NCBI GenBank assembly: GCA_030998015.1
Contig: JARWMV010000057.1
Coordinates: 34,865 to 98,864, forward strand
Reading direction: 5' to 3'
DNA from: Ceratorhiza oryzae-sativae
Taxonomy: Eukaryota > Basidiomycota > Agaricomycetes > Cantharellales > Ceratobasidiaceae
DNA: 64,000 nt
Every line of letters begins with the position of its first letter. Positions within the stretch are counted from its first letter, which is position 1. The notes beneath the pieces are model-generated. The model searched no databases. It was not told the DNA's origin and worked only from the letters and a program-made list of their open reading frames with translations. Positions 24,560 to 46,017 of the stretch are shown in pieces. The translations under genes were made by a program, and so were the position numbers.

Positions 24560-24848
24560 AGGAATGACAGAACTGTCGGAACACCTTGGATGCCAGAACG
24601 CCAGAATGCCAGAATGCATGCCGGAATGTCGGAACGCCGGAATGCCGGAATGCCAGAAGCAGGAATCAGACGGTTTCAGAGACGGAGTCCAACAGGTTTT
24701 GTTGATTCCTGCTCCGTTTCTGGCTCCGGCATCACCGGAAATAGCCGGAAATGGGCTGGAATATCCGGCCAATTCTGGCAGCTGGAGTCTGGCACGACAT
24801 CTCTAGCTCCGCTCCCTTGATCTGGTCCATTTTGAAGTCCAGGTCTCC

Positions 24849-25468: not shown

Positions 25469-27181
25469 TCAGCAGTCCTTCAGGACATGCCCTGATTTAC
25501 TGCATTTGATACAGAGTCCTTCTTTCCTTTGCTTGTCTTTTTCACTGTTTGGTATTCTTACCATGTTGTTAGTTTGGGTATTCCCTGGTTTGCTGCTGGT
25601 CCCTGAAGGCTTGTTCCCCCCTTGTTTGTATTTTGCTGGTGCCCAAGTTGAATTTGATGAGTTGCTGGTCCTTGCATTCATTTTCTGGTTTGCAAACTGC
25701 ATGTCATCCATTTTGCAGGCAAAGTCAATTGGTTGATCTAGGGCAGATGATGGTCCTTTGGCCTCATTTGCCAGCACTTCAATCCTTAAGATCTCTTGTT
25801 GTACTTCAGGTTTTAACCCTTCCCTGAATTGGTCCTTGAGGGCTTCCTGGTTCCAGTCTACCTCTTGGATCAGGATCTGGAATTGGGTAGCATAATCCAA
25901 TGCACTCTTGGTTTGTGTTAATTTCCTTAGCTTCCAGATGGTCTTTTCCTTTATGACTGGGTTGTTAAAGGCATCCAGGAATCCCTTCCTGAAATCCTTC
26001 CAGGATGCAAGGATCCCTGTGCATTCACCTGCTAGTAGTTTCCAGCAGTAAGGTTGTGCCCAGTTTGCTGCTTCCCCATCCTCCATGTTCATTAACACAG
26101 TAGATATCTTTTTTCAGTCATCAAAGGCTGATTTGTCATAGTCAGCAAAGAAAAGTTCCATGCCAATTATGAAGTTCTCTGCTTCCTTCCCCTTTTTCCT
26201 GTTAAATTTGCTGGGTCTCCCTAGTTGCACCTCCTTAGGAGTGTGGTTTGCAGCAAGGGTAGGTTGGTTTGCTTGGGATGGAGGTTCTGTTCAGGGTCTC
26301 ATTGTGGACTTGGCCTGGAAGGTTCTTCCCAGAAAGGGTGTTTGTACTGGGGAGGCTGAGGGGGATTGTGAGGGGCTTCCTATGACCACCCTAGTTCTTC
26401 CCCTGTTCTCTTCTGTCCTTTCCCTCAGCCTTCCTGCTTCAGTTGTTTTCTGGAGCTCATTTCCTAGATCAGTTACCTGTTGTTCTAGTACAGTCAGGAT
26501 CTCCCCTGTGTTTTCAGTTTTCTTCTCTAAGCTTTCAAGCTTTTGCTCTTGCATTCCCAATACCTGGTTTATTTCCAAGGAGATGTCCTTTTATTCTTTT
26601 ATCAGGTTCCCCATTTCTGCTTTCAGGTTGTCCTGGTTCTTTGCCACATAGAGGACATTTCTGTTGGATGTTTCCATTGATCTTACCATCCAGTCCACGT
26701 TTCCTTCTTGTTGTGTTAGTGATATTTGACACTGGTTTATACTTGTGATTGCCTTTTCTAGTTCCCTATGGTTATTGTCTCTAAGTTCCTTGAGCCCTGC
26801 CCTGATGGCAGTGGCAATGGTGTGAATAGGGTTGGCAGTGGTTATGGCTCTGGAACCTGGCTGGGGTTGTGTCCTTGCATCTTCTGCCAAGGCTGTGCCT
26901 TGTTTGTATATGGTTCAGGTCATATCTTCTACCTCATCCCTCTCTGGATTTGAGATATCTTCTGGGTCTGGATTTATCATGAGAATTGGCAGTTGAGGGC
27001 TGCGGAGTGGTATTCCCCTTATTTGCCCTCCCAGGATGGGGGCCTGAGTGGGGTTAGGTTGAGCCACTGGTTGTGGATTTTGTGGCAACCCCCCTGGCAT
27101 TCCTTGGAGGGTTTCATCTGCATTACCTTTGGCCTCTGGGGGAGTAACAGGTTTGGGTGATTGTGGTCTACTATTTGCCAC
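25469..27181 (-). pseudogene. Gag of the decayed Gyp-B copy
   Basis: Several open stretches (25469-26098, 26291-26578, 26591-26890, 26915-27181) are parts of one gag, separated by single in-frame stops. It has an N-terminal Pro-rich region, a coiled coil (26300-26700), the retrotransposon-gag domain (25600-26150) and a CCHC knuckle CIKCSKSGHVLKDC near 25475-25520. Confidence 0.75.
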
Positions 27182-27337: not shown

Positions 27338-27991
27338 TGTTGTGACCCTCTGGATGCTTCCTTGTGAAGCACTTAAGTAGTGGCTGCATTGATGGTTTGA
27401 TGTTATGTGGTATGTATTGAGTGTTCTAGTTACAGTGTTTGCTATGGTCTATGGTGGTTGACAAGATAAAGCAAGCTGAGGCATCCAGTCTTGCTTTATC
27501 CTTCTTATATACATCTGTGGCTGTGGTGGCTGCAGATGTATTATTTAAGCACAATCTGCAGTAAGTACAAGTTATATACAGTACTATGGGTTAGGCAATT
27601 GTTTATCTTAAGTTTGTGCAGCTCTGAATCTTATAGAGCTGCACAAGGTCTGAGGGGTAAGTGCTGAGGTCACGTGATCCTGCCATAAGTGCCAAGATCA
27701 CATGACAACTTGCTCCTCACTCCAAGTAACAAGGGAGAGAAATGCTGGAGCAAGTTCAGGGTAACCACTGTAAGTGCTGGTTAAGCACTGAGATCACATG
27801 ACAACTCACTCCTTGCTCCAAGTAACAATGGAGAGAAATGCTGGAGCAAGTTCAGGGTAACCACTGTAAGTGCCAGTTAAGCACCTGAGGTCATGTGACC
27901 TTGTTTATGGCTTGTTCCACTTAGGAAAAAAATGCCATAAATCTGTAAAATATTTGGTTACTCTGTTATGTCCATTTGACAGGTCATAACA
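27338..27991 (-). repeat. LTR-B, 5' LTR of the truncated copy
   Basis: It starts TGTTGTGACC and ends GGTCATAACA, with two internal repeat units. Nearly every CpG present in the other LTR-B copies is TpG or CpA here. The AGCTTGCTTTAT PBS lies just left of it. Confidence 0.9.
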
Positions 27992-28370
27992 TAGGACCAA
28001 TGGAAACCTGGTAGATGCAATAATGTGTAGAGGGGTATGCATTGCTTCAGTTGAAGTACTACATGGGCACACCATGCAGACAGCAACCAGACCAGACAAG
28101 ACTTACCTCCTGTGAAGCAATATAAAATATTGCTACTACTCTGGAATATCTTGCCATTTAGGTAGCTCAGCTCAAGTTCAGTTATACACACACAAAACCA
28201 ACTGATCCACCTATGGGATATTTTATTGTTTAATCTCAGATACTGATGAATCATGAGCCCAATCAGTGCCATGTCTACATTGTGGTCCAAGAGGGTTACA
28301 CTTCCAACTGCATGCAATTCTAAGGCCAAATGAGAGGGGTGAGAGGGGGCTTAGTTAAGGCTACATTCCC

Positions 28371-28531
28371 AGCCAAAAGCAAATTTGCTAGTTAGGGCTA
28401 GTTAGAGTCCTGGTTCTACATAAGCAGAATTGACACCCAGGTAGCTTGGATTAGCATGCATTACTGGCATCTGTTCTGCTTAGGTAGAACTGGTGCTCTG
28501 ACTAGCCCTCAGTAGCAAATTGGATTTTGCC
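28371..28531. mobile_element. Small foldback element (MITE-like)
   Basis: Two arms of about 60-65 bases (28371-28435 and 28467-28531) are imperfect inverted copies. The best-matched segments are GGCTAGTTAGAG against CTCTGACTAGCC and CTACATAAGCAGAA against TTCTGCTTAGGTAG. The loop is about 30-40 bases. No coding capacity. The exact termini and target duplication were not resolved. Confidence 0.6.
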
Positions 28532-28781
28532 CAAGTTAAGATGTGGATCCCCAGCACATATGCTGGCATTCAGATAAATCAGGAAATGTTTTCAGACAAA
28601 TGAACCTGAGGGACAAGATAATTGGGCACACTAAACCACACAAACCAAAGAACAGGGTGGTATCACCTATGTATATGCTGTCCCAAAACTGGCTCTCTCA
28701 ACCCTCAAGAAGTCTTGTCTGCTTCATGCAGGTCAGATAACTTGTTGTCCTCACAGCACGGCCAGCAAGATGCAGCCATTG

Positions 28782-29074
28782 TGTTGAACTGACCCATATA
28801 TTGTTTGATGTTATATTGATGTTGTTCCTTACTCTCCGCATGTACCCCAAGTTTTGTATGTTAACTCCATTCATAGATACATTAGATAGATACACCTGTT
28901 ATTCACGCATTGTATTCTCCAATTCTTACTATATAACTGAATGTATGCGTCACCTCTCTACTCAGCAACTTTCACCTCTCACTTGTGTATTATACATTTC
29001 GTTGAGCTCTTCCACTTCGCATACACTACGCTGAGTTACTGAAGTGTACTATACATACACTAGATGTTTCAATA
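28782..29074 (+). repeat. Copia 5' LTR
   Basis: 293 bases. It differs from the right LTR at about 17 sites, almost all of them CpG in the right copy and TpG or CpA here. Confidence 0.93.
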
Positions 29075-29086
29075 GGTTATGAGCCC
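29075..29086 (+). promoter_or_regulatory. Copia primer-binding site, probably half-tRNA
   Basis: GGTTATGAGCCC directly follows the 5' LTR. It is complementary to GGGCUCAUAACC, the anticodon stem-loop including CAU of eukaryotic methionine tRNA, not to a tRNA 3' end. Drosophila copia and yeast Ty5 prime from a cleaved initiator tRNA in this way. Confidence 0.7.
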
Positions 29087-29121
29087 TGAGCTTTGTTGAG
29101 CTCACCGTTGCTGCCAAACTG

Positions 29122-32100
29122 TTGAATCCCCAGCTATCTACACCTGCACAATCGCCTTGCTCGTCTCCGCATTTGTCACCTACTTCATCTGCTTGCCACA
29201 TTGAAGACCCTCTCAATGCTACTGGCGTTACTGACAAATTTGCCAATTTTACTTTAAATCCAGCTCCTGCAGATGTATCTTTACCTCCATCACCATCAAG
29301 CACATCAACCCTTGACACTGTCAAACTTGATTTACACAACCAACTTTATACTCTTCAACTTGACTCTACCAAATATCAGTTTGCATTTAACCAACTCAAT
29401 CTCTATGAGCAACTTATCAACATGCATACACAGTCCCAACTCAGGCAATTTCCACCCAACAACCACCTATATCTTCTATCTTTCGCACAGCTAGGCCTTC
29501 TGTCACCCACCAAATCTCCTACTACTTCTGCTGCTCAATTTACTATGGCCACCTCTTTGTTGTCATTGAACCCTACCAATCTGCTGTCCTCTGTGTCCTT
29601 CCTTATCATCGTGGACAAGAATTATTCTATCACTAAACTCCAAGGCCAAGATGATTATCAAGTCTGGTGTATTCAAATGGAGGACATGTACCAAGATGTA
29701 GGCATCTGGGACATTGTCGATGGCTCTACGTCACGCCCTACAACTACTGGCTCTGATCAAAACGACTGGGACAAGAAGAACAAGGCCGCTTTGGGTGCTC
29801 TATGTCGTCGTGTTGATACCAGACCAATGATTCATGTTGCCTGAGCCACTAATGTCACTCAAGCCTGGCAACTACTCAAAAGTCAATACCAATTGCTAGC
29901 CATTGCTGCTATGACTATGCTGCAAAACAAGTTTACCTCTCTTTGTATGACTGAAGGCAACAATCTTGAGTCCCACATCAAGGACTTGCAAAAAATCTTC
30001 AACAACCTTAATATAGTGTCTCTTGCTGAATCTTCGGCTGCACTGAAGGAGATCAATTTTATTCGACAACTTTGTGTCTCTCTGCCTGAATCTTGGCAAC
30101 TCTTGATCTCTGTGATCCCTCAACGGCCCAAACCAGCTGATGCCGATGGCTCACAACTATTGCTTGACATCCAATCATGGCTACTCACTGAATATCATCG
30201 CTGCAAATCCCAGAACAGCAAAAAGTTGTTCTTCGTTCGCAACCGCCAAATTCCCGGAAATCGCTGTATCAATCAACCCCAAAATGTGTCTGCTATAATT
30301 GAAATTATTTGTCACAACTGCGGCATACCTGGTCACAAGAGTCCTGAATGCTGAAAGGCTGGTGGCAGCACATACAAGGGGGGCCGAAATAATAACAACT
30401 GCAGAGGCACAAACTGTGGACGCGAAAAAGGCTGTAGGAACACAGGAGACAGAACCAATAATTGCGAAAATAATCACAATGCGAATAATGGCCAGAATTA
30501 CAATAATCAAAACAATGGCAAACATGCGAACTTTGCCTCATCAACACATTTCACTTTCTCCCTTCAGTTTTCTTGGAATAATCCAACACAGCCATCTAGT
30601 TCCACTCGTCATACTAGCGCTTATGCTCCCTCACCGTCGTGGGAACTGATCTTGCTACCAAATCCTCCTTTGCCATCTATTGAGAAATCAGCTAAATGCG
30701 TCCAGCGCTATTTTGCCGAAAACTTTATGCATTTTTCTTTTACACTACAAACTCTCACTCAGTTTGGCATTGGTCTAGATGACACCTGGACCATCGACTC
30801 TGCCGCTTCGTGTCACATAAAAAATCGCTGTGAGCATCTAGCAAATTTTATTCCTATGTCCATGACAATCCAAGGCATTGGTGGCACTGCCACTATATCT
30901 GGTTTTGGCAAAATTGCTCTGTACACCTATGCTCAAGTCCCTCGCATCATTAACAATAAACCCGTCTATGGTCGCCCTGATGGCCATGTCTTTTTCACCA
31001 ACATTGCACTTGTCAAAGAATCTCCAGTCAACCTATTGTCTCTATCCGCTTGGACTGACAAATATCCTTGGCATACTGCTCATGTGACCAGAGACTACAT
31101 TGCTTTCTTTGATGAAGTTGACACAAATGATCAATGCATATTCGCTCAAGCCCAAAAAATAGGCAAACGATGCACTGGAAATTCGTGGTACCTTATGGCT
31201 ACTACCGATCCTGGGCAGCACACTTATCTGTTGCATACATTGCGTGACTGGCATATCATTCTTGCGCATACAGACCCCCGAAACATCCTTTGTCTCAAAA
31301 ACATGAAACTAGCATGTGGCCTTGAAATATCTACGACTAATACTGTATCTCTAAACCCCAACTTTGATTGCATCAGCTGCATACAAGGGAAGGCTCACGT
31401 TCGACCCTTCAGCAACATCTCTATCGAATCCCCTTGCAAGATTGCCAATTTATTCTACTCTGACGTCTGGGGCCCGGCTGCTGTTTCATTGCTCCAAGGG
31501 AACCTGTACTATATTGTCTTCGTCAACACTGCCACTTGTTTCACCTTTGTGCACTTCATGCGAACAAAAGGTGAAGCTGTCGATCATTACATCGCCCTAG
31601 CAAATTACATCCACACTCAAAAAGGGCAAGAAATCAAGTGCATTCACTTTGACAATGGCAAGGAGCTGATCAACAAATGCTTGCGCAAGTACTGCAACAA
31701 AACTGGCACTGAAATCACTACCACTGCGCCTTACTCATCACAACAAAACGGCACTGCTGAACATGCACATTGCACCTTAGCTGAACAATCTTGTGCAATG
31801 ATTCACAGACACTCTAACACTAGGGGGAAACTATTCTTATGGCAGGAAGCCGTCGCCTACAAAAATCTTATCGCTAATAATTTACCCCACAAAATCCGAG
31901 GCAAATGGCATGTCCCACAGATCGAAATGTTCAATAAACCTATCGATATGTTGTATTTTCAACTTTTCGGCACTACCTGCCATGTCCTCATCCAAACTAA
32001 AGGACACTCGAAAATAGAGGCCAAGACTTGGCACACTATTTTTACTGGTCTAGACCGAAACTCTGGAGGAGTCTGGCGATACCTTGCATGGCCTGATCGC

Positions 32101-32492
32101 GCTATCCATCAATCGCTCAATGTTTATTTTCCCTGCCACCTCCCCGATCCAACTTCTTTCAATACCCCAGCCCCTATATTGACGTCTGAACAATCAGAGA
32201 CCCTATCTGACGAGAAATGGGTCCAGGTCTTTGCACCGAGTGAGGGGGAGATGTGAAATGGCTCAAACGCTCAGCAACACGAGCATATATCCACTCAGCA
32301 CCAAGACCCATCCAATCTATCTCAGGGGGAGCTTCCTACACCCTCACAACCTGCTCAGACCGTCATGGACGTTTCTCCATCTAGTGTGAACAATGAACAT
32401 TCACATTGTCCTACACCAGGTCCTTCCACAATGCCTCAGCCCTCTGATCGCGCCATCCCCAGCATTACTCGACGCATTACTCGCCTACAGAC
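29122..32492 (+). pseudogene. Copia gag-pol, 5' segment (gag, protease, integrase)
   Basis: One frame runs from 29122 to the Gyp-B insertion. It is interrupted only by TGA at 29842, 30352 and 32254. The likely start is ATG 29545, although the frame is open upstream. Visible: zinc knuckle CHNCGIPGHKSPEC (30310-30351), protease TIDSAASCHI (about 30790-30820), integrase zinc region (His near 31245-31268, CISC near 31372), catalytic Asp in YSDVWGP (31459), Asp in HFDNGKEL (31650) and Glu in NGTAEH (31755). All key residues are present, so decay is limited to the TGA codons. Confidence 0.88.
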
Positions 32493-32497
32493 TTGTG

Positions 32498-33277
32498 TGT
32501 TGTGACCCTCTGGAGGCTCCCTTGTGGAGCACTTAAGTAGTGGCTGCGTTGACGGTTTGGTGCTATGCGGTATGTATTGAGTGTTCTAGTTACAGTGTTT
32601 GCTATGGTCTATGGTGGTTGACGAGATAAAGCAAGCTGAGGCATCCAGTCTTGCTTTATCCTCCTTTATATATACCTGTGGCTGCGGTGGCTGCGGATGT
32701 ATTATCTAAGCACACTCCGCAGTAGGTGTAGGTTATGTACAGTACTATGGGTTAGGTAATTGTTTGTCTTAAGTTTGTGCGGCTCCGAATCTTATAGAGC
32801 CGCGCGAGGTCCGAGGGTCATGTGACCTTTTGGACTTAAGCACCTGGCGCTTAATTGCTGAATAAGCGCCGAGGTCACGTGACAACTCGCTCCTCGCTCC
32901 AGGTAACATGGGAGAGAAACGCTGGAGCGAGTTCAGGGTAACCACCGGCGCTTAATTGCTGAATAAGCGCCGGGGTCACGTGACAACTCGCTCCTCGCTC
33001 CAGGTAACATGGGAGAGAAACGCTGGAGCGAGTTCAGGGTAACCACCGGCGCTTAATTGCTGAATAAGCGCCGGGGTCACGTGACAACTCGCTCCTCGCT
33101 CCAGGTAACATGGGAGAGAAACGCTGGAGCGAGTTCAGGGTAACCACCGGCGCTTAATCGTTGGGTAAGCGCCGAGATCACGTGACCTTGTTTATGGTTT
33201 GTTCCGCTTCGGGAAAAATGCCATAAATCTGTACAATATTCGGTTGTTAGGTTATGTCTGCTAGGCGGGTCATAACA
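32498..33277 (-). repeat. Gyp-B 3' LTR (780 bp)
   Basis: TGTTGTGACC...GGTCATAACA, with three 101-base repeat units between about 32840 and 33180. The polypurine tract AAAGGGGGGATAA (minus strand, 33278-33290) borders it. Confidence 0.93.
32840..33180. repeat. 101-bp tandem repeats in LTR-B (3 units)
   Basis: The TCACGTGAC box recurs at 32875, 32976, 33077 and (as ATCACGTGAC) 33178, a constant period of 101 bases. Each unit also holds an inverted repeat GGCGCTTA...TAAGCGCC and the CGCTCCTCGCTCC / CGCTGGAGCGAG pair. Confidence 0.9.
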
Positions 33278-33355
33278 TTATCCCCCCCTTTGGACATGTC
33301 TTGGGGGATCTCGAGGCATGTTTCTTTTTTCTGGGTTCTAAAAGTTTCTAAAAGG

Positions 33356-33479
33356 TATCTCATATATCGAGGAGGTTAAGGGCGCTGGACTCGAACCAAC
33401 GACCTTCCGTTCGATGTGTAATTGATTAGCTAGGAGATGATGAGTCAGGCTAGACCCCTTAACCTCTACGCTACATGAG
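33356..33479 (-). other. tRNA-like sequence with B-box, not a canonical tRNA
   Basis: On the minus strand GGTTCGAGTCC (B-box consensus) lies in a T-arm-like hairpin GTTGG/CCAGC, with an A-box-like TAGCGTAGAGG about 80 bases upstream and an 11-base pairing GAGGTTAAGGG/CCCTTAACCTC. The D and anticodon arms do not fold normally. It may be a tRNA relic, an intron-bearing degenerate tRNA or the head of a SINE. It lies between the rep gene and the 3' LTR. Confidence 0.35.
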
Positions 33480-33576
33480 ATTACTTTCTCTTTGCTTATT
33501 TCCTTGTTTAAGCTTACTTCTCGACACATGGTCTGTGAATAACACAGCTTATACAAAGATAAATTATTTTTATTTT

Positions 33577-34905
33577 TTAAGGAAAAATAAAAAATGGCTT
33601 CCCTCCTGAGTATACCCAGTCTACGTTTTTGGATACCCATAAGTCCCCTTCTTCCCCCTCTATGTCCGTCCAACACTTCATTATGGCCGACCGGCTATTC
33701 CCCAGGATCACTGTCGGCCGTACCTTCATTGACTTCACATGAGCATATCTGCCTGTGAAGTCTGCTTCGTACTGGCTCAGGGCTTTGAGCGAGTACTTCC
33801 CGTTTGACTGGACCATGTCATCCAGGATCCAGATGTCGGCGTCCTCCGACAGATTCCCCACGTTCCAGACGTTGCACATCCGGCTATGGGAGCCCTTGGA
33901 TCGCGCATACGCCGTCTTCCCAGTTCCTGTTTCGCCTTCGATCACCAGGATGCGATGGCGCACGCCCCTCCCTCTCTTCTCAGACTCTTCTGCAAACCAT
34001 CGGTCCGCCCTGTCGATGTGCGCCCGGTCTTCTGGGACTTCCAACTCCACCGGGATTGCAGGCATGCATCCCCGGTCCTCCTTATACGTGTACTCAGCAT
34101 ATGCTCGTACCAAGTTCCACGTCGTCACCATCTGGAGGGGGCGCAGGCGCTTGAATGCCTGGTAGTATTCCTTTTTTGTCGCTGAGGCAACAATCTCCGC
34201 CCCGTCCTCCAGGTCCGCCTCCGCCCTTGACCTTTTCCTGCCCTTTCCCTTCACCAGGATTTCCTCTAACCTCTCCAAGGTCAGGTCCCCCGCCATCAGC
34301 TCCTCTACCTCCTCGCCGTTAGCTCCGACATCCTTCCAGAGGTAGTTGAAAGCCTCCCTTGCAGGGTTGCCTCCTGGTCCGTCCTTGAGGTCCTTCGGCA
34401 GGATGTTGGGGTGTTGCCCCTCGAAGTCCCAGAACCGGGTGTTCTGGGTGTTCCAGCTGCCCTTCCACTCCTGACTGATGGAGAGGGCGTGGACATGGAG
34501 GGGCCGGGCCGGGTCGTAGTTCGGTTCCTCGGGGTTGTGGCGTTCCACCACCGCCAAAGTCGCCCAATGATTTGGCCGTTGGCGGCAGAACGCCTCGTAT
34601 CGGGCGACGAGCCCACTTGAGGGCTGATCGTGTAGCTTCGACCAGGTCAGCAGCACCGCCCTGGTCTGGACGCGGAACCGAGGGGCCGGCGCGGTTTCGG
34701 TCGGCTCTTCGGACCCTCGATCCGTCGGCGTAGGCCGCATAGAAGCGGGTGAGGGGGCTCGGCTTGATACCGAGGGCGCTGGCGATGGCGACGCCGACCT
34801 CCGCCCTTCGCTTGATCCGCTTAGCTGGGGTGTTGCCGCGTTCAATCCATTTCCGCTTAGCATGTTTACAGTTTTAGAGGTATTTGGGGACTGGGAAGAG
34901 AGCAT
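33577..34905 (-). CDS. rep: CRESS-DNA-type replication initiator (Rep): HUH endonuclease plus SF3 helicase
   Basis: This intact 442-aa frame has the full motif set of Rep proteins of small circular ssDNA viruses. An N-terminal Ser/Pro-rich tail is followed by endonuclease motif I (VLLTWSK, residues about 84-90), motif II HVHALS (137-142) and motif III YLWK (188-191, with Tyr188 as the nicking tyrosine). The helicase has Walker A GETGTGKT (324-331), Walker B IWILDDM (358-364) and motif C VILGN (399-403). In these viruses Rep nicks an origin hairpin, starts rolling-circle replication and unwinds DNA. A TATATAAG box lies about 35 bases upstream, so Met15 (34863) is an alternative start. GC-rich codons and retained CpG set it apart from the neighbouring repeats. 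It is an endogenous copy; whether it is expressed is unknown. Confidence 0.9.
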   Translation of the reverse strand: MLSSQSPNTSKTVNMLSGNGLNAATPQLSGSSEGRRSASPSPAPSVSSRAPSPASMRPTPTDRGSEEPTETAPAPRFRVQTRAVLLTWSKLHDQPSSGLVARYEAFCRQRPNHWATLAVVERHNPEEPNYDPARPLHVHALSISQEWKGSWNTQNTRFWDFEGQHPNILPKDLKDGPGGNPAREAFNYLWKDVGANGEEVEELMAGDLTLERLEEILVKGKGRKRSRAEADLEDGAEIVASATKKEYYQAFKRLRPLQMVTTWNLVRAYAEYTYKEDRGCMPAIPVELEVPEDRAHIDRADRWFAEESEKRGRGVRHRILVIEGETGTGKTAYARSKGSHSRMCNVWNVGNLSEDADIWILDDMVQSNGKYSLKALSQYEADFTGRYAHVKSMKVRPTVILGNSRSAIMKCWTDIEGEEGDLWVSKNVDWVYSGGKPFFIFP

Positions 34906-35403
34906 GAGAGTGTGGGTTATCTCGGGTCTTGTGCTTGTCTATATAAGCTGCAAGGTCCGTTTTAATTGTCACATGACTCCGTCTTGCATTTGTTGTGATC
35001 ACATGACCTTATTTTGGTGATGACGCATCTCCGAGGGGTGCCCTCCCATCCGTTCCTCCGCGTCGGCCTTGATCCTCGCTACGCTCGGGGCCTCCGCTCC
35101 CCCACTTCGGTCGGTGCCCCCTCTCCGACCCCTCCGGTAGTTAGGGGATAGCGTATATTCACGTGACTAGGCTGGGTCATGTGATTCCTGTGCTTTGTTG
35201 TTTGTTTTCTGGCAGGTGGTCACGTGACTAGGCTAGGTCATGTGATTCCCGTGCTTTGTTGTTTGTTTTCTGGCAGATGGTCACATGTCTGTTGGTGTCA
35301 CCTGACCAGACCTTGTTTTGATGTTTGTGCACGTTATTGTGTTGCACCGTGATTTTTTAATGTTTGTGGTTTTGTTGTTTTCCTTCCTCATCCCGTCTTT
35401 ACT
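34906..35403. promoter_or_regulatory. Divergent intergenic region of the Rep module
   Basis: About 500 bases separate the minus-strand rep gene and the plus-strand ORF-X. It holds the rep TATA box (about 34938-34947, minus), GC-rich hairpin-prone sequence (35040-35150), including CCCCT/AGGGG around a 9-base loop near 35130, and the 61-base repeats. I did not find a canonical TAATATTAC nonanucleotide; GCGTATATTCAC at 35151-35162 is the nearest look-alike. Confidence 0.4.
35159..35280. repeat. Two tandem 61-bp repeats
   Basis: Units 35159-35219 and 35220-35280 differ at about four positions. Each starts TCACGTGACTAGGCT and contains GGTCATGTGAT. Repeats between rep and a divergent gene recall iterons bound by Rep proteins, but this is only positional. 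Confidence 0.85.
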
Positions 35404-35972
35404 ATGCGTGTTATTTCCCTTAACTACAATCCCCTTGACTGCACCTGCTGGTCTCTCCCTGAGGGGGAGTACTGCGCCTACTGTGATGCCGTGTGCGACG
35501 CCTCCCTTGAAGACTTCTATCAAGGTGTTGGGGACTGGTTCTTCTGTGGGGTGCCCGGTATGTGTGTTCGTTCTTCGTCGTTCTCACGTAGCTAACTTGT
35601 TCTGTAGAAGAGCGCATCCTCCTTGATGGTCGGGCCCATGAGGCCACCCTTGAGCGTGTCTGGGCGCTTGTTGATCAGGACTGCCGGTTATTTGAGGAGC
35701 GGCAACACCAGGCTGCCCTTGCTGAGTTTTTTGAGGAGGGCTCGGCCCCTTTGTTCGACGAGGCCTCACCCTTTGCGGCTTCTGGTTCTGGATGTTTCCA
35801 GAACTATATGGCGATCTCCCAGGGGGGGAGGCCCCCTGGCTGTTGCCTGAGAACCAGGCTGGTGGTTCTGCGGCCCGTACTATTAGGAAGGATAAGAAGG
35901 CAAAAAAACCCTATACCCGGCCCCTCAAGGGCAAGAAAAAATAGAAGCATTTTGAAATGTATTATTATATGA
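35404..35972 (+). CDS. ORF-X of the Rep module, Cys-rich N-terminus, basic tail
   Basis: Exon 1 (35404-35557) encodes a Cys-rich start (CTCWSLPEGEYCAYCDAVC). A 50-base GT-AG intron (35558-35607) joins it in phase to exon 2, an acidic segment with many Glu and Phe. In this frame the ORF stops at 35970. After a run of seven G near 35822 the next frame gives a Lys/Arg-rich tail ending at 35943 that looks more natural, so a one-base slip is possible. It is transcribed opposite to rep. No family recognised; a metal-binding or DNA-binding role is only a guess. Confidence 0.45.
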
Positions 35973-35987
35973 TTATGAAAATTATTC

Positions 35988-36842
35988 TTAAGACATTCCA
36001 AAAAACGTGTGATAGGCCCGATAATCACAGGGGCTCCGGGGCCAGCAGGGGCACTTCCTCCAAGGCGCCGCCAGCTCATCCTCCCATTTGGCCCAATCCG
36101 TTTGGACTCCCTCTTGGGCCGGGTCCGGGGTTGGTTCCTTTATCGTTACTCTCGGCTCCTCCTCCTTCACCACCAGGGACTCCAGGCTTGCCGTGAGGCT
36201 CGACATATCTGTGTCGTAACCGTGCAGGTTTGGGCGTACCTTCACCCAGTTACGGAAGTCGGCCAAGTTTGCTTCCTTCAACCTGATGGCAGTAAACATT
36301 TCATCAGTGGTAGTGGCCTCAAGCAGTCCCACATACGGTGCCGCCGGTGCCAGCTTCCACTGCTCCAACAGTGCCTTTGCCCGGCGCTCCACCTCCCAGT
36401 CCCCTCCGTCTGCCATTTGGCCTGTGGCCCTCCTCTGTTGCCTTGCTGCCTTGGTCACCACGTCGACTGTTGGTCCCACGATATTGTCGACGACATACAT
36501 CGGTGTTCTTAACAAGGCGTTTCTCGTCGTTGGCTTCCGGCTTCCATGCCATGTCAGGACCCCTAACCTGGGATCCAGGTACTTGTCATCGTCAATCCAG
36601 TTCCTTTCATCCCTTAACTTCTTTGGGATGTACACTAGGTTAGCCCCTGGCAACAGTCGTTCGGCGTACCTCTGGGCGTCTTCCACACTGGAGCAGTACA
36701 TCCCTGGTTTAGGACGATTTTCCCTGCCAGGGTAGGGTGCTGGCCGCCTGGTGGTGGGTGGCTGCCGAAGTGGGGCCACCTGATTTTCGGCAAGTGGGGT
36801 GTAACGGTTGGGATGTGCGATTGGGTGAGTGACGAAAGGCAT
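35988..36842 (-). CDS. ORF-Y of the Rep module, unknown protein
   Basis: This 284-aa protein runs from the ATG at 36842. The frame is open to 37040, where it overlaps the end of the chromodomain frame. It has a Pro/Arg-rich N-terminus, a middle with charged helices and an acidic C-terminus ending in a Cys/Pro-rich stretch. It is not retroviral gag, pol or env as far as I can see, and no jelly-roll capsid pattern is obvious. It lies in the rep orientation. It could be the second gene of the captured replicon or unrelated host DNA. Confidence 0.5.
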   Translation of the reverse strand: MPFVTHPIAHPNRYTPLAENQVAPLRQPPTTRRPAPYPGRENRPKPGMYCSSVEDAQRYAERLLPGANLVYIPKKLRDERNWIDDDKYLDPRLGVLTWHGSRKPTTRNALLRTPMYVVDNIVGPTVDVVTKAARQQRRATGQMADGGDWEVERRAKALLEQWKLAPAAPYVGLLEATTTDEMFTAIRLKEANLADFRNWVKVRPNLHGYDTDMSSLTASLESLVVKEEEPRVTIKEPTPDPAQEGVQTDWAKWEDELAAPWRKCPCWPRSPCDYRAYHTFFGMS

Positions 36843-36927
36843 GCTTTTGGGGTTTCGCAGGTGTGTTGTGGTGCAAGTGAGGTAGTAGAGCGGGCTCTGG
36901 CCTTTCTTGGGTATCCTGGATGGCTTT

Positions 36928-37347
36928 TTAAAGCTTTCCAGATCCTCGTTTGGTTCTCTTTGGCCTGCCTTTCGAGTCACCTGAGTGCTGACTTGTCTTG
37001 ACTGGCATTGGTGCGTCTGGTAAGCGCCTTTGCAAGTCATTTAGAACCTCTTTCATGTCAGCAAACTTGCTGGCACGTTCCATTGTGTCTTCTATTGGGT
37101 CGTAGCCCTTCCATCTGATTTGGTAAAACAGCTCGCCATTCCGCCATTCATAATTTGCAATGTGGTCCACCTCGTATTCCTCCTCTCCTTTTTCCGTTAT
37201 GATTGGTGGTGGCTTGGCCTGCCTTCTTCGGAAGTCTTTATCTTCTGTGAATGGCGAGAGGAGATTTATGGAATACATTGTGTACACGTATAGTTTTAGG
37301 TAGGTCCAGGCGATATGCATGGGATGAGATCTTTTCTGTGATTTCAA
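36928..37347 (-). pseudogene. Gyp-B chromodomain segment of pol
   Basis: The frame contains a chromodomain with the aromatic cage pattern (YEVDHIANYEWRNG, FYQIRWKGYDP), preceded by the end of the integrase. It is out of frame with the integrase segment by one base near 37430, otherwise intact. It ends in a basic tail just before the Rep-module sequence. Confidence 0.8.
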
Positions 37348-37428
37348 AGGGCCCCCCTTTTCGGTTGTCCAGTTTCTTGGAGGGTCTCTTGGACGAGAGG
37401 TTTGTTAGGAGCAGCCAAACCTTGTCTC

Positions 37429-38370
37429 CTACCTTGAATTCCCTCCCTTTCTTTCCATTTGTTGGTGTAATTCCATTGAGGCTCTTGCCTCATCCCATAC
37501 CTTTTCCATTTGATTACGCATGTTGTCTGCAGCGGGTGCCTCAGATGGTTCTTCTCCCTCTCGGACAACCCATCTTGGGTTTTTTCCATATACTGTTTCA
37601 AATGGGGTTTGTCCTGTTGTAGCATTTACGTGGTTGTTATGGCAGAATTCGGCAATGGGTAACCATTTTACCCAATCATCTTGTCTATAATTGCAGAAGG
37701 TTCTTAAGAACCCTTCTACCCATTGATTTGTCCTTTCCGACAGACCATCCGTTTCTGGATGGAAGGCAGTGGAGAATCTGGGCTTTGTCCCAATTCCTTT
37801 GTATAGGGCCTTTAGGAATTGGCTGTTAAAGGTTGGCCCTCGGTCTGAGACAGTAGTTTCTGGGGTCCCGTGATGTCTCCATACTTCCCTTATGAATATT
37901 TCTGCCAGTTCTTCTGCATTGGTGCTCTCCAGACATGGTACAAAATGGGCCTGCCGGGAGAAGCGATCTACAACTGTCAAAATACTGTCGTACCCCTTTG
38001 AGACAGGTAATTTGACGATGAAATCATATGCGACATCTGCCCATGGTTTCCATGGGATTGGTAAAGACTTCAGGGAAGTGCCTTGTTTGTGTCCTTTGCT
38101 TCTTTGACACGTTTCACAAGATTCCACGTATCGGTTTACTTGGGCCTTCATTCCTGGCCAATAGTAATCCCTTGATAGTAATTCTAGTGTTCGGGCTTGT
38201 CCCTGATGACCTGCCACTGGGGCGTCATGGCACTCCTCAAGGAGACTCAACCTCAAGTCCTTGTCATCTGGGATGTAGAGCCTATCGTCATACCTTAATA
38301 GGCCCTCCTTCATTTCATACCGTCTAAATTCCTTCTGTACTGAGGGCGGTAGTTGTTCCTTATTTGCCAC
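37429..38370 (-). pseudogene. Gyp-B integrase segment of pol
   Basis: It has the zinc-binding HHCC (HDAPVAGH, CETC) and the catalytic Asp in AYDFIVKLP, Asp in VSDRGPTFNS and Glu in GLSERTNQ. It is separated from the RNase H segment by a frame change near a run of six C (about 38435). The core is complete. Confidence 0.85.
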
Positions 38371-38416
38371 ACTCAGCCTTAAGGATCTGATAGATTCGTC
38401 TTCTTCCTGAGCTTCT

Positions 38417-40339
38417 TTAAGCTCTTCCCAGAAATCCCCCCTGTACTTCTGCCATGAAACCTATGAACCTTTCTTCTGGAATCATGATCTGTGGTTCCAT
38501 AGGGGTATCCCCATGGTCGCTCCTTCTGGAAAGGGCATCTGGCTTCTGTGAGAGTTTCCCTGGCCTGTACACAATCTGAAAATTGAAGGGTGCCAGAGTG
38601 AGATACCATCTGGCATGCCTTCTATTCCACATCTGGGCATTTTGCCAGTACTGGAGGTTCCTATGGTCAGTGTATATCACAATGGGTTCCTCTGTCCCTT
38701 CTAAGTATAACCTCCAGTGCTCTAAGGACCTAACAATTGCAAGCAACTCCTTGTCGTAGGTGTCATAATTTTTCTCTGGTGGGGTGAAGCTCTTCGATAG
38801 GAAGGCAATTGGATGCAATCGGTTGTCATCACCCTTTTGGCTTAGTACCGCCCCCATGGCCACTCCTGAGGCGTCTGTTTCCAGTATGTATGGCCTGTTT
38901 GGGTTTGGGTGGATCAGGACCGGTTCTCTTGCTACTGCTTCTTTGATAGCTTCAAATGCTTCCTGTTGTTTTCTTTCCCACAGGAATTTGACATCTTTTT
39001 GGGTGAGATCTGTGAGGGGTTTGGCTAAGGTGCTAAACTTCTCTATCCACCTTCTATAGAACCCCACGAAGCCTAGGAAGGCTTGGACTTCTTTTACTGT
39101 GTTAGGTTCTGGCCATTCTAGAACTGCCTTTACCTTTTCCTTTTCCATCGATATCCCTTCTGGGGATATGACAATTCCAATGAAGCTTACCTCCTTCACG
39201 AAGAACTGACACTTGTGTGGTTTGAGGAAGAGGTGGTTTTCCCTCATTCTTCTTAACACTTCCCTGACATGTTGTACGTGTTCTTCCCTGTTTCTGGAAA
39301 ACACTAGTACATCGTCCATGTAGATTACCACATAATCGTCTATTATGTCACGGAACTTTTCCATCATGAACCTGGTAAAGGTTCTTGGTCCTTCTTTTAC
39401 TCCGAATGGCATGACCAAGCATTCAAACTGGCCTTCTCCTGTCCTGAAAGCTGTTTTCCATTCGTCTCCCTCTTTTACCCTGATGTTGTTGAACCCCCAT
39501 CGAACATCCATTTTTGAATAGATGGTTGCATCCTTCAGTCTCTCAATCAATTCTATTTGGATTGGAAGTGGAAACCTGTCTGGCTTGGTGATGTCATTCA
39601 TCTTACGGTAGTCGACTACCAACCTAAGCCCTCCATCTGCTTTGTTCACATAGAAACAGGGTGCAGCTACAACTGACTGGCTGGGCCTTATTTTCCCGTT
39701 TCTTAGTTCCTCCTCTAGGTACTCCCTGAGCGCCTTTGTTTCTGCTGGTGACATACTGTACCTCTTTGCAGGCTTTGGCAGCTCCGCTCCCTCGATCAGG
39801 TCCATTTTGAAGTCTAGGTTACCTCGGTGGGGTGGAAGTTCTCGGAAACCTTCCTCCCCAAATAGGTCTTCAAAATCCCTAAATTCTTCTGGGATTGGTA
39901 GGCTTTCACTTGCTGCCCTTGCCTTGATTTCGTCTGGGTATGAGATGGTAAGGTCTTTCCAATCTATGATAGGTTCTGCTTCTTCAAGCCATTCTTTCCC
40001 TAGGACTATGTCGGTGTCACCTAGGGTCATTACATAAAGGGAGCATTTTAGTGTCTTCCCTTCCACTTCGATGTTTAGTTCTGCCCTTTCTTCTATGGCA
40101 TCCTTGATTTCATTTCCATCAATGGCCACAATTGATTTCTTGTGTTTGAGGGGAGTGGTTGGAATCCCTTTTTCCCTTGAATAGGCCTTATCGATGAAGT
40201 TGGTTGAAGATCCTGAGTCAATCAGCGTTTTAGCTGGTTCCATGATTCCCTCTACCGTAGTGTATATTATTGATTGATTACTAGACTTCTTGAGGTAACA
40301 TACATCTGCGGTAGGGGTTATATTGGGGTCCTCCAACAT
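38417..40339 (-). CDS. Gyp-B protease-reverse transcriptase-RNase H
   Basis: 640 aa. The protease has LIDSGSSTNFID near residue 40. The RT has YMDD (VVIYMDDVLVF near residue 330). RNase H has ETDASG, DKELLAIV and YTDHRN. All catalytic residues are intact. Its ATG follows the gag zinc knuckle by a short gap. The frame is lost at the C run near 38435. Confidence 0.9.
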   Translation of the reverse strand: MLEDPNITPTADVCYLKKSSNQSIIYTTVEGIMEPAKTLIDSGSSTNFIDKAYSREKGIPTTPLKHKKSIVAIDGNEIKDAIEERAELNIEVEGKTLKCSLYVMTLGDTDIVLGKEWLEEAEPIIDWKDLTISYPDEIKARAASESLPIPEEFRDFEDLFGEEGFRELPPHRGNLDFKMDLIEGAELPKPAKRYSMSPAETKALREYLEEELRNGKIRPSQSVVAAPCFYVNKADGGLRLVVDYRKMNDITKPDRFPLPIQIELIERLKDATIYSKMDVRWGFNNIRVKEGDEWKTAFRTGEGQFECLVMPFGVKEGPRTFTRFMMEKFRDIIDDYVVIYMDDVLVFSRNREEHVQHVREVLRRMRENHLFLKPHKCQFFVKEVSFIGIVISPEGISMEKEKVKAVLEWPEPNTVKEVQAFLGFVGFYRRWIEKFSTLAKPLTDLTQKDVKFLWERKQQEAFEAIKEAVAREPVLIHPNPNRPYILETDASGVAMGAVLSQKGDDNRLHPIAFLSKSFTPPEKNYDTYDKELLAIVRSLEHWRLYLEGTEEPIVIYTDHRNLQYWQNAQMWNRRHARWYLTLAPFNFQIVYRPGKLSQKPDALSRRSDHGDTPMEPQIMIPEERFIGFMAEVQGGFLGRA

Positions 40340-40356
40340 GGAAGTGGTAGGACCAA

Positions 40357-42215
40357 TTAGTTTTCCGACTCAGAGCTGCTTTCTTCCTCAACTTGTCTGC
40401 TGGCCTTCCCTTGTATCTTAGCTTTGTCGTAGGTCCACTGGCCTCGGCACTCCTTCAGGACATGCCCTGATTTACCGCATTTGATACAGAGTCCTTCTTT
40501 CCTTCGCCTGTCCTTTTCACTGTTTGGTATCCTTACCATGTTGTTGGTTTGGGTATTCCCCTGTTTGCCGCTGGTCCCTAAAGGCTTGTTCCCCCTTGTT
40601 TGTATTTCGCTGGTGCCCAGGTTGAATTTGATGAGTTGCTGGTCCTTGTATTCATTTTCTGGTTTGCAAACTGCATGTCATCCATTTTGCAGGCAAAGTC
40701 AATTAATTGATCTAAGGTATATGATGGACCTTCAGCCTCATTTGCCAGTACTTCAATCCTTAAGATCTCTTGTCGTACTTCGGGTTTTAACCCTTCCCTG
40801 AATTGGTCCTTGAGTGCTTCCTGGTTCCAGTCTACCTCTTGGATCAGGATCCGGAATTGGGTAGCATAATCCAATGCGCTCTTGGTCTGTGTTAATTTCC
40901 TTAGTTTCCGGATGGTCTTTTCCTTTATGACTGGGTCATTAAAAGCATCCAGGAATCCCTTCCTGAAATCCTTCCAGGATGCAAGAATACCTGTGTGTTC
41001 GCCTGCTAGTAGTTTCCGGCGGTAAGGTTGTGCCCAGTTTGCTGCTTCCCCATCCTCCATGTTCATTAGCACAGCAGATATCTTTTTTCGGTCATCAAAG
41101 GCTGATTCGTCATAGTCAGCAAAGAAAAGTTCCATGCTGATTATGAAGTTCTCTGCTTCCTTCCCCTTTTTCCCATTAAATTTGCTGGGTCTCCCTAGTC
41201 TTGCCTCCTTAGGAGTGTGGTTTGCAGCAAGGGTAGGTTGGTTTGCTTGGGATGGAGGTTCTGTTCGGGGTCTTATTGTGGACTCAGCCTGGAAGGTTCT
41301 TCCCAGAAAGGTGTTCGTACTGGGGAGGCTGAGGGGGATCGTGAGGGGCTTCCTATGACCACCCTAGTTCTTCCCCTGGTTTCTTCTGTCCTTTCCCTTG
41401 GCCTTCCTGCTTCAGTTGTTTTCCGGAGCTCATTTCCTAGATCGGTTACCCGTTGTTCTAGTGCGATTAGGATCTCCCCTGTGTTTTCAGTTTTCTTCTC
41501 TAAGCTTTCGAGCTTTCGCTCTTGCATTCCCAGTACCCGGTTTATTTCCATGGAGATGTCCTTTAATTCTTTTATCAGGTTCCCCATTTCTGCTTTTAGG
41601 TCGTCCTGGTTCTTTGCCACATAGAGGACATTTTTGTTGGATGTTTCCATAGACCTTACCATCCAGTCCACGTTTCCTTCTTGTCGGGTTAGTGATATTT
41701 GACACTGATTTATACCGTGATTGCCTTTTCTAGTTCCCTATGATTATTGTCTCTAAGTTCCTTGAGCCCCGCCCTGATGGCGTGGCAATGGTGTGAATAG
41801 GGTTGGCAGTGGCTATGGTTCCGGGACCTGGCTGGGGTTGTGTCCTTGCCTCTTCCGCCAAGGCCGTGCCTTGTTCGTATATGGTTCGGGTCATATCTTC
41901 TACCTCATCCCTCTCTGGATTTGAGATATCTTCTGGGTCTGGATTTATCAGGTGAATTGGCGGTTGAGGGCTGCGGAGTGGTATTCCCCCTATTTCCCCT
42001 CCCAGGATGGGGGCCCGAGTGGGGTTGGGTTGAGCCACTGGTCGTGGGTTTTGTGGCAACCCCCCTGGCATTCCTTGGAGGGTCTCATCTGGGTTACCTT
42101 CAGCCTCTGGGGAAGCAATGGGTTTGGGTGATTGTGGCCTACTATTTGCCACCTGCTTTGAGATCGAGTTTGTGGTCTCTGTGACATAGTTTCTTTGTGT
42201 TCTCTTATGTATCAC
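40357..42215 (-). pseudogene. Gyp-B gag, frame-broken
   Basis: Gag parts lie at 41730-42215 (Pro-rich N-terminus), 41273-41671 (coiled coil), 40578-41135 (retrotransposon-gag domain) and 40357-40539 (CCHC knuckle CIKCGKSGHVLKEC). Comparison with the older copy at 25469-27181 shows the breaks are one-base deletions, several of them in short homopolymers. A young element with so many such deletions may reflect consensus error. Confidence 0.75.
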
Positions 42216-42294
42216 AGGAGTTAGCTGGTTTTCTCGTGTACTCAGCCCTTAGTATCTGTGCAGTATACTTATGTTCGCCACTAGTTAAGTTAAG

Positions 42295-42306
42295 AGCTTG
42301 CTTTAT
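42295..42306 (-). promoter_or_regulatory. Gyp-B self-primer binding site
   Basis: AGCTTGCTTTAT (plus strand), two bases from the LTR border, is the exact inverse of 42437-42448 inside the LTR. That LTR segment lies about 30 bases downstream of a TATATATA box (42477-42484) on the minus strand, where transcription should start. This is the same self-priming layout as in Gyp-A, with different sequence. Confidence 0.7.
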
Positions 42307-42308
42307 AA

Positions 42309-43180
42309 TGTCGTGACCCTCTGGAGGCTCCCTTGTGGAGCACTTAAGTAGTGGCTGCGTTGACGGTTTGGTGCTATGCAGTATGTATTGAGTGTTCTAG
42401 TTACAGTGTTTGCTATGGTCTATGGTGGTTGACGAGATAAAGCAAGCTGAGGCATCCAGTCTTGCTTTATCCTCCTTATATATACCTGTGGCTGCGGTGG
42501 CTGCGGACGTATTATCTAAGCACACTCCGCAGTAGGTGTAGGTTATGTACAGTACTATGGGTTAGGTAATTGTTTGTCTTAAGTTTGTGCGGCTCCGAAT
42601 CTTATAGAGCCGCGCGAGGTCCGAGGGTCATGTGACCTTTTGGACTTAAGCACCGGCGCTTAATCGCTGAATAAGCGCCGAGGTCACGTGACAACTCGCT
42701 CCTCGCTCCAGGTAACATGGGAGAGAAACGCTGGAGCGAGTTCAGGGTAACCACCGGCGCTTAATCTGTAAGCGCCGAGATCACGTGACAACTCGCTCCT
42801 CGCTCCAGGTAACATGGGAGAGAAACGCTGGAGCGAGTTCAGGGTAACCACCGGCGCTTAATTGTGAATAAGCGAGGGTCACGTGACAACTCGCTCCTCG
42901 CTCCAGGTAACATGGGAGAGAAACGCTGGAGCGAGTTCAGGGTAACCACCGGCGCTTAATTGCTGAATAAGCGCCGGGGTCACGTGACAACTCGCTCCTC
43001 GCTCCAGGTAACATGGGAGAGAAACGCTGGAGCGAGTTCAGGGTAACCACCGGCGCTTAATCGTTGGGTAAGCGCCGAGATCACGTGACCTTGTTTATGG
43101 TTTGTTCCGCTTCGGGAAAAATGCCATAAATCTGTACAATATTCGGTTGTTAGGTTATGTCTGCTAGGCGGGTCATAACA
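42309..43180 (-). repeat. Gyp-B 5' LTR (872 bp)
   Basis: TGTCGTGACC...GGTCATAACA with four internal repeat units (TCACGTGAC at 42684, 42781, 42879, 42980 and 43081). It contains the TATA promoter. Confidence 0.93.
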
Positions 43181-43185
43181 TTGTG

Positions 43186-43970
43186 CAAACGACAATCCTC
43201 CTGAGCATATGCACCTCAACCAGAAATCACAACCCGAATGTGTACTATGGCTTCAATCACTCAACAGTCTGCATACACAGATCAACTCTTTTATCTGCAA
43301 CCCTGACCAAGTCTTCATGATTGACACATCATCGCTTGGTCACTCTGCAAACCGCTCGCACCTTCCAGACCGCATACAAGCCTGCTTCCTCACTTTAGAT
43401 GCTACGCGCGATGATGAAACACCTTGCTACAACACCTGGGTCGCCAAACATTTTTCTTCACTTGCACAGCCTGATCTCACTGACTCCGACTCTCCTAAAT
43501 GGTCAGACGCCATTTGCTCTAACCGCCGTAACGACTGGCTTGCTGCACTCGATGCTGAATTTGAACAACTGAAGAAACAAAAAGTCTACAAAATTATCCC
43601 TCGTCGGGACGTACCTCCTGGCCAACAGATACTTACATCCGGCCCTGTTCTAAAGATCAAACAAGATGCTGATGGGAGCGAAATCCGTCTCAAAGCTAGG
43701 CTAGTCATACACGGAAACCAACAAATCGCTGGCCTTACATACAACGAAACCTTCTCAAACACACCCGATCTTGCATACATTCGTATCGTTTTCGCTCTCG
43801 TTGCTTACACTGATTTCGATTGTCACATGGTTGACGTCACCGGCGCATACACTCACGCACCAATGGATATACCACTCTATGTTGATTTCCCCGAAGGTTA
43901 TGGGAAAGGCGGCTCCCAGGTTATGCTTGTCACTAAGGCTCTCTACGGATTGCATCAAGCTGGCTATCTA
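43186..43970 (+). pseudogene. Copia pol, integrase C-terminus and reverse transcriptase start
   Basis: The frame continues directly from 32492 once Gyp-B is removed. RT blocks are visible: WSDAICSNRRNDWLAALDAE, KARLVIHGNQQ, MVDVTGAYTHAPMD and TKALYGLHQAGYL. It is cut by the solo LTR at 43971. Confidence 0.88.
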
Positions 43971-44550: not shown

Positions 44551-44555
44551 ATCTA

Positions 44556-45701: not shown

Positions 45702-45719
45702 AGGCTCGGTTAGGGGGAG

Positions 45720-46012: not shown

Positions 46013-46017
46013 CATTG

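Follow-up and report, generated by a model that had tools for sequence, protein, structure and literature searches.

A conserved three-gene module with a likely geminivirus/genomovirus-type Rep gene in a lineage of fungal Ty3/gypsy retrotransposons

Rolling-circle Reps and reverse transcriptases (RTs) represent two separate strategies of mobile DNA, and the locus described here raises the question of whether they may be combined in a single element. The window analysed, a stretch of 64,000 nucleotides from Ceratorhiza oryzae-sativae (contig JARWMV010000057.1, positions 34,865 to 98,864, assembly GCA_030998015.1), contains Gyp-B, a Ty3/gypsy chromovirus on the minus strand (32498–43180), and a first-pass annotation of the window had reported a Rep gene module inside it. 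We confirm that observation. The accompanying interpretation, that a Rep module carried in a chromovirus had been spread by reverse transcription, is supported by the agreement of copy number, gene order, target duplication, subfamily divergence and intron pattern. The explanation that we favour, with a probability of roughly two in three (0.68), is that the Gyp-B lineage carries a conserved three-gene module whose Rep is likely a captured geminivirus/genomovirus-type initiator that would act on the extrachromosomal DNA of the element.

Gyp-B is bounded by near-identical long terminal repeats (LTRs), with a polypurine tract and a 5-bp target duplication (Table 1). The two LTRs agree at 765 of 780 aligned bases, and 11 of the 15 mismatches border a 94-nt gap in repeat number. 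Pfam analysis gave the domain order gag, protease–RT–RNase H, integrase and chromodomain, with matches to PF03732 (E 9.5e-14), PF00078, PF17921 and PF00385. Gyp-B has all of these parts in common with other fungal Ty3/gypsy chromoviruses, including the LTRs, the polypurine tract and the 5-bp target duplication, and differs from them by 3.6 kb of extra coding sequence that holds Rep, ORF-X and an antisense spliced gene (ORF, open reading frame). The stretch previously described as non-retroviral, 33278–36927, indeed lies between the chromodomain ORF, which ends at 36928, and the 3' LTR, whose edge is at 33277. Downstream of the chromodomain, the module is ordered as ORF-X (sense), ORF-Y (antisense, spliced) and Rep (sense). 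The two further ORFs that had been reported beside Rep fared differently: ORF-X stands, and the other proved to be the spliced opposite-strand gene ORF-Y. Gyp-A, a second element in the same window (RT 2753–4573, integrase 1754–2632), has a pol related to that of Gyp-B (41–49% identity), and comparison of the module with Gyp-A gave no match at E ≤ 1e-5.

A search of the 48.8-Mb assembly (253 contigs) located Rep at no fewer than 150 places, with 96 rows at 95 places for the first query and 55 further places for a query from a deeper lineage, C. At 88 of the 95 places, window included, ORF-X or integrase lies upstream on the same strand. ORF-X was found within 8 kb at 81 of them, at a median distance of 1146 nt (some distances, such as 7363 nt, may cross into an adjacent copy), and integrase within 12 kb at 67, at a median of 2577 nt. 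Among the seven places lacking both, the four that were read (L025, L057, L058 and L059) each have a Gyp-B LTR after Rep, two begin close to the start of a contig (at 108 and 455 nt), and the seventh is C17. The 55 places of the lineage-C query have ORF-X upstream in 41 cases and lack it in 14, among the matches listed. Viewed from the other genes, 119 of 138 ORF-X rows are followed by Rep within 8 kb (84 and 35 in two comparisons) and 19 are not, while 131 integrase rows have ORF-X downstream in 109 cases and Rep in 67, again among the matches listed. A Gyp-B LTR follows Rep in 20/20 fetched loci, which were the top-scoring matches outside the window and not a random sample.

The same order of integrase, chromodomain, ORF-X, antisense ORF-Y and Rep is kept in three loci of a subfamily B (L029–L031), with Rep DNA 82–84% identical to that of the window, and in the deeper lineage C (L055 and L056). 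In lineage C, amino acid identity to the window is 67–68% for integrase, 40–48% for ORF-X and 70% for the longest match in Rep, and an LTR-like match follows Rep in L056. The question of whether other Gyp-B copies carry the module is thus answered by a family of which the module is a fixed part, with at least 150 Rep places and an order that persists into a deeper lineage. A mis-assembly at the module borders is very unlikely, since numerous other copies have the identical order.

Rep genes are known from fungal genomes, and some are said to lie in transposons (PMC3198968). A close comparison is the geminivirus-like Rep transposon of Tuber melanosporum (Liu et al. 2011, PMC3198968), which like Gyp-B is a multi-copy fungal mobile element with a geminivirus-type Rep ORF; terminal inverted repeats of 37 bp and transposase ORFs are described for it, but no obvious target duplication. 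It is this precedent (PMC3198968) that lends some plausibility to a module that is an independent Rep-driven transposon, landing repeatedly in Gyp-B. A loose search also recovered an A/T-rich 18-nt pair, 78% complementary, that flanks the Rep/ORF-Y block at 33561–33578 and 35936–35953. However, the Gyp-B Rep belongs to an LTR retrotransposon that has gag and pol, LTRs and a target duplication of 5 bp, its copies are bounded by LTRs, and an inverted pair of at least 30 nt was not found around the module (28000–46500, seed 12); a 41-nt pair from the loose search is a local hairpin over a tRNA-like stretch. The position of the module is constant in the 20 fetched loci, in subfamily B and in lineage C, and no free-standing Rep was seen among the places with flanks read. 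Repeated independent landing is therefore largely refuted by this constant place, and the proposal in the first-pass annotation that a Rep-driven element used Gyp-B as a landing site leaves the copies, with their LTR after Rep, unexplained; we regard it as highly improbable. A one-time landing when the lineage arose is possible.

The pattern of substitution bears on whether Rep is in use. The ratio of nonsynonymous to synonymous substitution rates (dN/dS) for Rep was 0.18 between subfamilies A and B (63 pairs), 0.22 within A (210 pairs) and 0.34 within B (3 pairs), and 0.21 for the window against L029 (bootstrap 0.16–0.30). ORF-X (0.31) and the two ORF-Y exons (0.35 and 0.20) likewise gave values well below 1. 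Between A and B and within A, respectively, integrase gave 0.44 and 0.72 and the chromodomain 0.53 and 0.82, means from which rows with poor alignment or decay, L011 among them, were not removed. These ratios indicate that purifying selection is acting on Rep. Homologs of 427–429 amino acids with 69–77% identity occur in other Ceratobasidium isolates, from which all named Rep relatives come. Both results argue against a dead endogenous virus fragment carried without function, an idea to which one might be led by the stops in 11 of 24 Rep rows (the other 13 have none in the aligned frame) and by the changed frame of ORF-Y in the window. Decay of this kind hits single copies and spares the lineage, and a dead fragment is accordingly a very remote explanation.

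The Rep frame of the window is open over 442 codons, as had been reported, and contains HUH motifs I–III and superfamily 3 (SF3) helicase motifs A–C. That length holds for the ORF in the window and not for the conserved protein, which probably has about 428 residues, because the open frame spans 429 codons in most close copies, where a stop lies directly ahead of it, and relatives from other species begin near residue 15. The motifs are LLTW (residue 85), HVH (137), YLWK (188), GETGTGKT (324), ILDDM (360) and ILGN (400). Between motifs II and III lies a geminivirus Rep sequence (GRS)-like motif, RFWDFEGQHPNI, with its D at 160, which the first-pass annotation had missed. Published definitions for Reps of circular Rep-encoding single-stranded (CRESS) DNA viruses are uuTYxQ, xHxHx, YxxK, GxxxxGKT, uuDDu and UxxN (PMC11052389), and a genomovirus GRS is given as RKFDVVGFHPNI in the table of PMC8621823. 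The Gyp-B motifs agree with these definitions and with the genomovirus motif table except at motif I, where Rep reads LLTW. All seven motifs in order occurred in 0 of 200,000 shuffles, and the six without GRS likewise in 0 of 200,000; the motif I pattern admitted Y, F or W in view of the LLTW reading, and the GRS pattern was picked with the Rep sequence already in view. Of 16 motif residues checked in 24 Rep copies from lineages A and B, 14 are identical in 24/24, and the two Walker B aspartates are each present in 23/24. Chance occurrence of the motifs was rejected on the shuffles.

The introns of the module provide a further line of evidence. In lineage C, the Rep gene is interrupted at GLVAW^YKAF by a GT-AG intron of 61 nt in all three copies read (L055, L056 and L061), and the unspliced intron contains stops. 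A protein from a metagenome, P0022, has 24 extra residues at this site and P0024 starts inside a similar stretch, while P0020, P0023 and P0011 are uninterrupted across it. In the tree, P0023 is the neighbour of P0024 (support 84/76) and P0020 that of P0026 (95/86), so that presence and absence of the intron seem to alternate. No row of the first Rep query (96 rows, 95 places) is split at the site. Rep of the window lineage lacks the intron precisely, and the antisense ORF-Y intron is kept with GT-AG borders in 23 of 24 aligned copies. A clean absence of the sense intron beside a retained antisense intron is expected from copying via a spliced genomic RNA, and we infer that the direction of change in Rep was loss and not gain. 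The contrast between sense and antisense introns would then be a natural record of passage through RNA.

A candidate link between Rep and the element is provided by the motif TCACRTGA. This motif or its complement occurs in Gyp-B six times in the intergenic region shared by the divergently oriented Rep and ORF-Y, and five and six times in the LTRs. One further site lies close to where Rep ends, and the remaining 6.9 kb have none. The three loci of subfamily B have two to four sites in the intergenic region and four to six in the LTR, and lineage C has one or two in the intergenic region and four in the LTR region of L056. The TATA box reported for Rep is present as TATATAA at 34940–34946. At the junction of the polypurine tract and the 3' LTR, TAATGTTAT covers the end of the tract and the first LTR bases; the window and 28 loci have it, from lineages A, B and C and making 29 of the 30 sources examined, the exception being L055, which has no such junction. 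For comparison, published genomovirus nonanucleotides are TAATATTAT and TAATATTAC (PMC8621823).

From these features a scenario can be proposed. An ancestor of Gyp-B would have captured a CRESS-like unit consisting of Rep and a divergent gene around their shared intergenic region, and the module would since have been copied along with the element by reverse transcription, which would have erased the sense intron of Rep in the window lineage and left the antisense ORF-Y intron out of its reach. Rep would be made from its own internal promoter, bind the TCACRTGA-type sites clustered in the intergenic region and the LTRs, nick at or near the LTR, with TAATGTTAT as a candidate, and unwind DNA copies of the element, whether circular or linear, so that more of them would be available for integration. 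Action of Rep on extrachromosomal DNA before integration is preferred because the catalytic motifs are kept, Rep has a putative promoter of its own, and the sites are shared. An extended form of this scenario, in which reverse transcription is followed by Rep-driven rolling-circle multiplication of the extrachromosomal DNA with nicking at TAATGTTAT, would make Gyp-B a double-mode element; we consider this form possible, though on balance doubtful.

Geminivirus Rep proteins influence host transcription and silencing. A comparable role would fit a nuclear Rep that is kept for something other than copying, such as countering host silencing, steering transcription of the element or interfering with incoming single-stranded DNA viruses, with the module as cargo of reverse transcription. 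Purifying selection shows use and not the kind of use, and sites common to LTRs and intergenic region also suit co-regulation by one factor. Against a pure regulator stands the conservation of nuclease and ATPase motif residues (14 of 16 in 24/24 copies), which it would not need, and a non-copying role is a serious but tentative alternative. A Rep-like enzyme retained under selection across more than 100 copies and several subfamilies makes a DNA-replication step of an LTR element's own a testable idea, and Gyp-B may illustrate a route for the spread of small single-stranded DNA virus genes through fungal genomes. Bdelloid rotifer terminons are likewise RT-bearing elements with a rolling-circle initiator gene; they are Penelope-like telomeric elements, unlike LTR chromoviruses. 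No description of Rep as a fixed gene of LTR retrotransposons was found in the titles and abstract openings of the open-licence papers that the literature searches listed.

Several results weigh against the favoured explanation, and some of them concern the identity of Rep. The Rep of the window had no match among PHROGs or PDB sequences, and none in Pfam that rose above noise. Among 46 homologs the curated cut-off of Gemini_AL1_M was not reached, the best score being 19.5 of 24 bits, and a search of this genome with PF00910 found nothing. Two AlphaFold models of Rep, from 16 and 46 sequences, had mean predicted local distance difference test scores (pLDDT) of 33.8 and 38.2, and Foldseek with the second, low-confidence model returned nothing at E ≤ 0.001; the Rep entries in its list stand at ranks 26 and 49 (E 0.42 and 0.79). 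Nothing useful came from tblastn of the homologs against phages and plasmids, from PDB profile and single-sequence searches, or from an IMG/VR search by Rep alignment, and an IMG/VR search with a DNA pattern encoding GRS gave 23 stretches, all in contigs of at least 8 kb, which were not used. Put to a profile search, the refuting test that the first-pass annotation had itself named, its CRESS label obtained neither a curated match nor a Gemini match for the window Rep.

These failures, in curated profiles and in structure models, count in favour of a non-viral protein, that is, a fungal or transposon P-loop protein with HUH-like motifs by chance. The generic P-loop families nSTAND3 and AAA_22 also match weakly on the P-loop in 25 and 15 of 46 homologs, exceeding Gemini_AL1_M, which matches below cut-off in 10 (best E 0.001, profile positions 11–106 of 107); Gemini_AL1 matches one of the 46 (E 0.23). 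However, the motifs stand in an order that no shuffle reproduced, and Gemini_AL1_M aligns nearly over its full length (10–12 to 106 of 107) in five of a separate set of ten homologs (P0011, P0020, P0023, P0031 and P0008) and also in P0022. A non-viral origin is in our judgement quite unlikely. Compared with Reps of Genomoviridae and Geminiviridae, Gyp-B Rep has the same motif set and order, GRS included, and a weak Gemini_AL1_M similarity; unlike them, it is too diverged for curated profiles, is borne by a retrotransposon, and is accompanied by no recognised capsid gene. With ordered motifs, sub-threshold profile matches, no Gemini match for the window and low-confidence models, Rep is called only a likely geminivirus/genomovirus-type rolling-circle replicase, and the label CRESS-DNA-type draws on the ordered motifs and the sub-threshold matches.

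Other points of the same kind concern descent. The polarity of the intron change is based on few sequences, and lineage C multiplied while keeping its Rep intron. Among the matches listed, 17 of 131 integrase rows lack both ORF-X and Rep; of three that were read, L055 and L056 do carry the module, and L060 has an ORF-X remnant alone, with the chromodomain and this remnant followed by a different element and Rep not seen. In ten of the 11 Rep rows with an in-frame stop it falls within the conserved part, and the single stop of one row precedes the conserved start. Eleven of the 12 in-frame stops among the aligned rows (copies L009–L031) are TGA, as expected if CpG deamination drives decay. The retention of CpG previously noted for Rep is real, with an observed/expected ratio that reaches 0.85 for Rep, 0.77 for the intergenic region, 0.64 for ORF-X and 0.59 for ORF-Y but is only 0.40 for both pol and the gag region, and it means that module and pol are unlike in CpG content within one element. 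The three B loci are 92–96% identical to the window in integrase DNA and only 82–84% in Rep DNA, and this higher identity in integrase makes it likely that pol and module halves have recombined instead of descending strictly together.

The sites call for similar caution. TCACRTGA occurs 59 times in the whole window against 5 in shuffles, with some matches far from Gyp-B, and in view of this excess outside the element the sites may be ordinary host transcription-factor sites and not Rep-bound ones. The element contains no canonical TANTRTTAC. The looser TANTRTTAY has six occurrences in the window, where chance alone would give 4.8, thus no excess, and also matches TATTATTAT at 35960–35968. Since the needs of reverse transcription should by themselves preserve the polypurine tract and the LTR ends, the presence of TAATGTTAT at the junction may mean nothing, and its conservation could be coincidence.

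Table 1. Features of Gyp-B and its module in the window.
Feature	Position	Strand	Basis
Target-site duplication TTGTG, left copy	32493–32497	.	Flanking letters
Gyp-B 3' LTR, 780 bp, 5 TCACRTGA-type sites	32498–33277	−	
TAATGTTAT, CRESS-nonanucleotide-like, candidate nick site at polypurine tract/3' LTR junction	33272–33280	−	Looser pattern TANTRTTAY
Polypurine tract AAAGGGGGGGATAA, precedes 3' LTR	33278–33291	−	
tRNA-like sequence, tRNA-Arg-like, 95 nt, between polypurine tract and Rep	33374–33468	−	ARAGORN, relaxed 80% threshold
Rep gene, 442-residue ORF, HUH I–III, GRS-like and SF3 A–C motifs; probable conserved start 34863 (residue 15)	33577–34905	−	
Rep/ORF-Y intergenic region, 498 bp, TATA box and 6 TCACRTGA-type sites	34906–35403	.	
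61-bp unit, two head-to-tail copies, 95% identical	35159–35280	.	
ORF-Y exon 1, antisense to retrotransposon	35404–35557	+	
ORF-Y intron, 50 nt, GT-AG	35558–35607	+	
ORF-Y exon 2; window frame shifts ahead of lysine-rich tail	35608–35972	+	
ORF-X, no known domain; longest open frame 35988–37040	35988–36845 (end approximate)	−	
Chromodomain ORF, PF00385	36928–37347	−	Pfam
Integrase ORF, zinc-binding and core domains	37429–38370	−	Pfam
Protease/RT/RNase H ORF	38417–40339	−	Pfam
gag ORF, Retrotrans_gag and Ty3_capsid	40578–41135	−	Pfam
Gyp-B 5' LTR, 872 bp, 6 TCACRTGA-type sites	42309–43180	−	
Target-site duplication TTGTG, right copy	43181–43185	.	Flanking letters

For ORF-X and ORF-Y, searches of Pfam and PDB matched no family and no sequence. 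A protein search with ORF-X gave a single relative, P0060 of Ceratobasidium sp. AG-Ba (43%), which itself has a weak PSCyt1 match (E 0.12). Pfam recognised no capsid gene in either ORF, although a diverged capsid could go undetected, and a complete captured CRESS genome is unsupported, no capsid having been recognised. The spliced ORF-Y frame runs through to the lysine-rich tail in 17 of 24 copies, and is lost before it in the window, L009, L010, L011, L017, L021 and L025. By eye, the C-terminus of P0025 (Ceratobasidium sp. AG-Ba), KGKKPYDRPVSRKRKRW, resembles this tail.

The tandem repeat noted earlier in the module is the 61-bp unit of the intergenic region. Folded as single-stranded DNA, this region is better than shuffles (z −3.4, with 1 of 100 shuffles equally good), and a conserved hairpin was not established in it. 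Rfam gave one sub-threshold sul1 match, judged to be chance. The tRNA-like stretch was not detected by ARAGORN at default settings, and its B-box core was seen in five of six lineage-A loci but in none of the seven other loci tested.

Among the other copies, L013 and L019 have a Gyp-B LTR end directly joined to the middle of a second Gyp-B copy, resembling nested self-insertion, and L011 has lost most of RT and integrase and retains the LTR, ORF-X, ORF-Y and Rep. Elsewhere in the window, TCACRTGA forms clusters at 8113–8378, 27670–27898 and 44294–44458, the first and last of which share the 101-bp spacing seen in the Gyp-B LTR and probably represent what is left of LTRs. A further Gyp-B fragment lies at 24804–25364 and 26915–27181, where the start of the protease/RT ORF is 94% identical to Gyp-B, and an ORF close to it resembles, by eye, the ORF at 41730–42215. 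A 294-bp direct repeat, 95% identical, at 28781–29074 and 45719–46012 flanks an integrase-like ORF of another type (30652–32256, by eye); its two copies are likely the LTRs of a copia-type element that Gyp-B has split.

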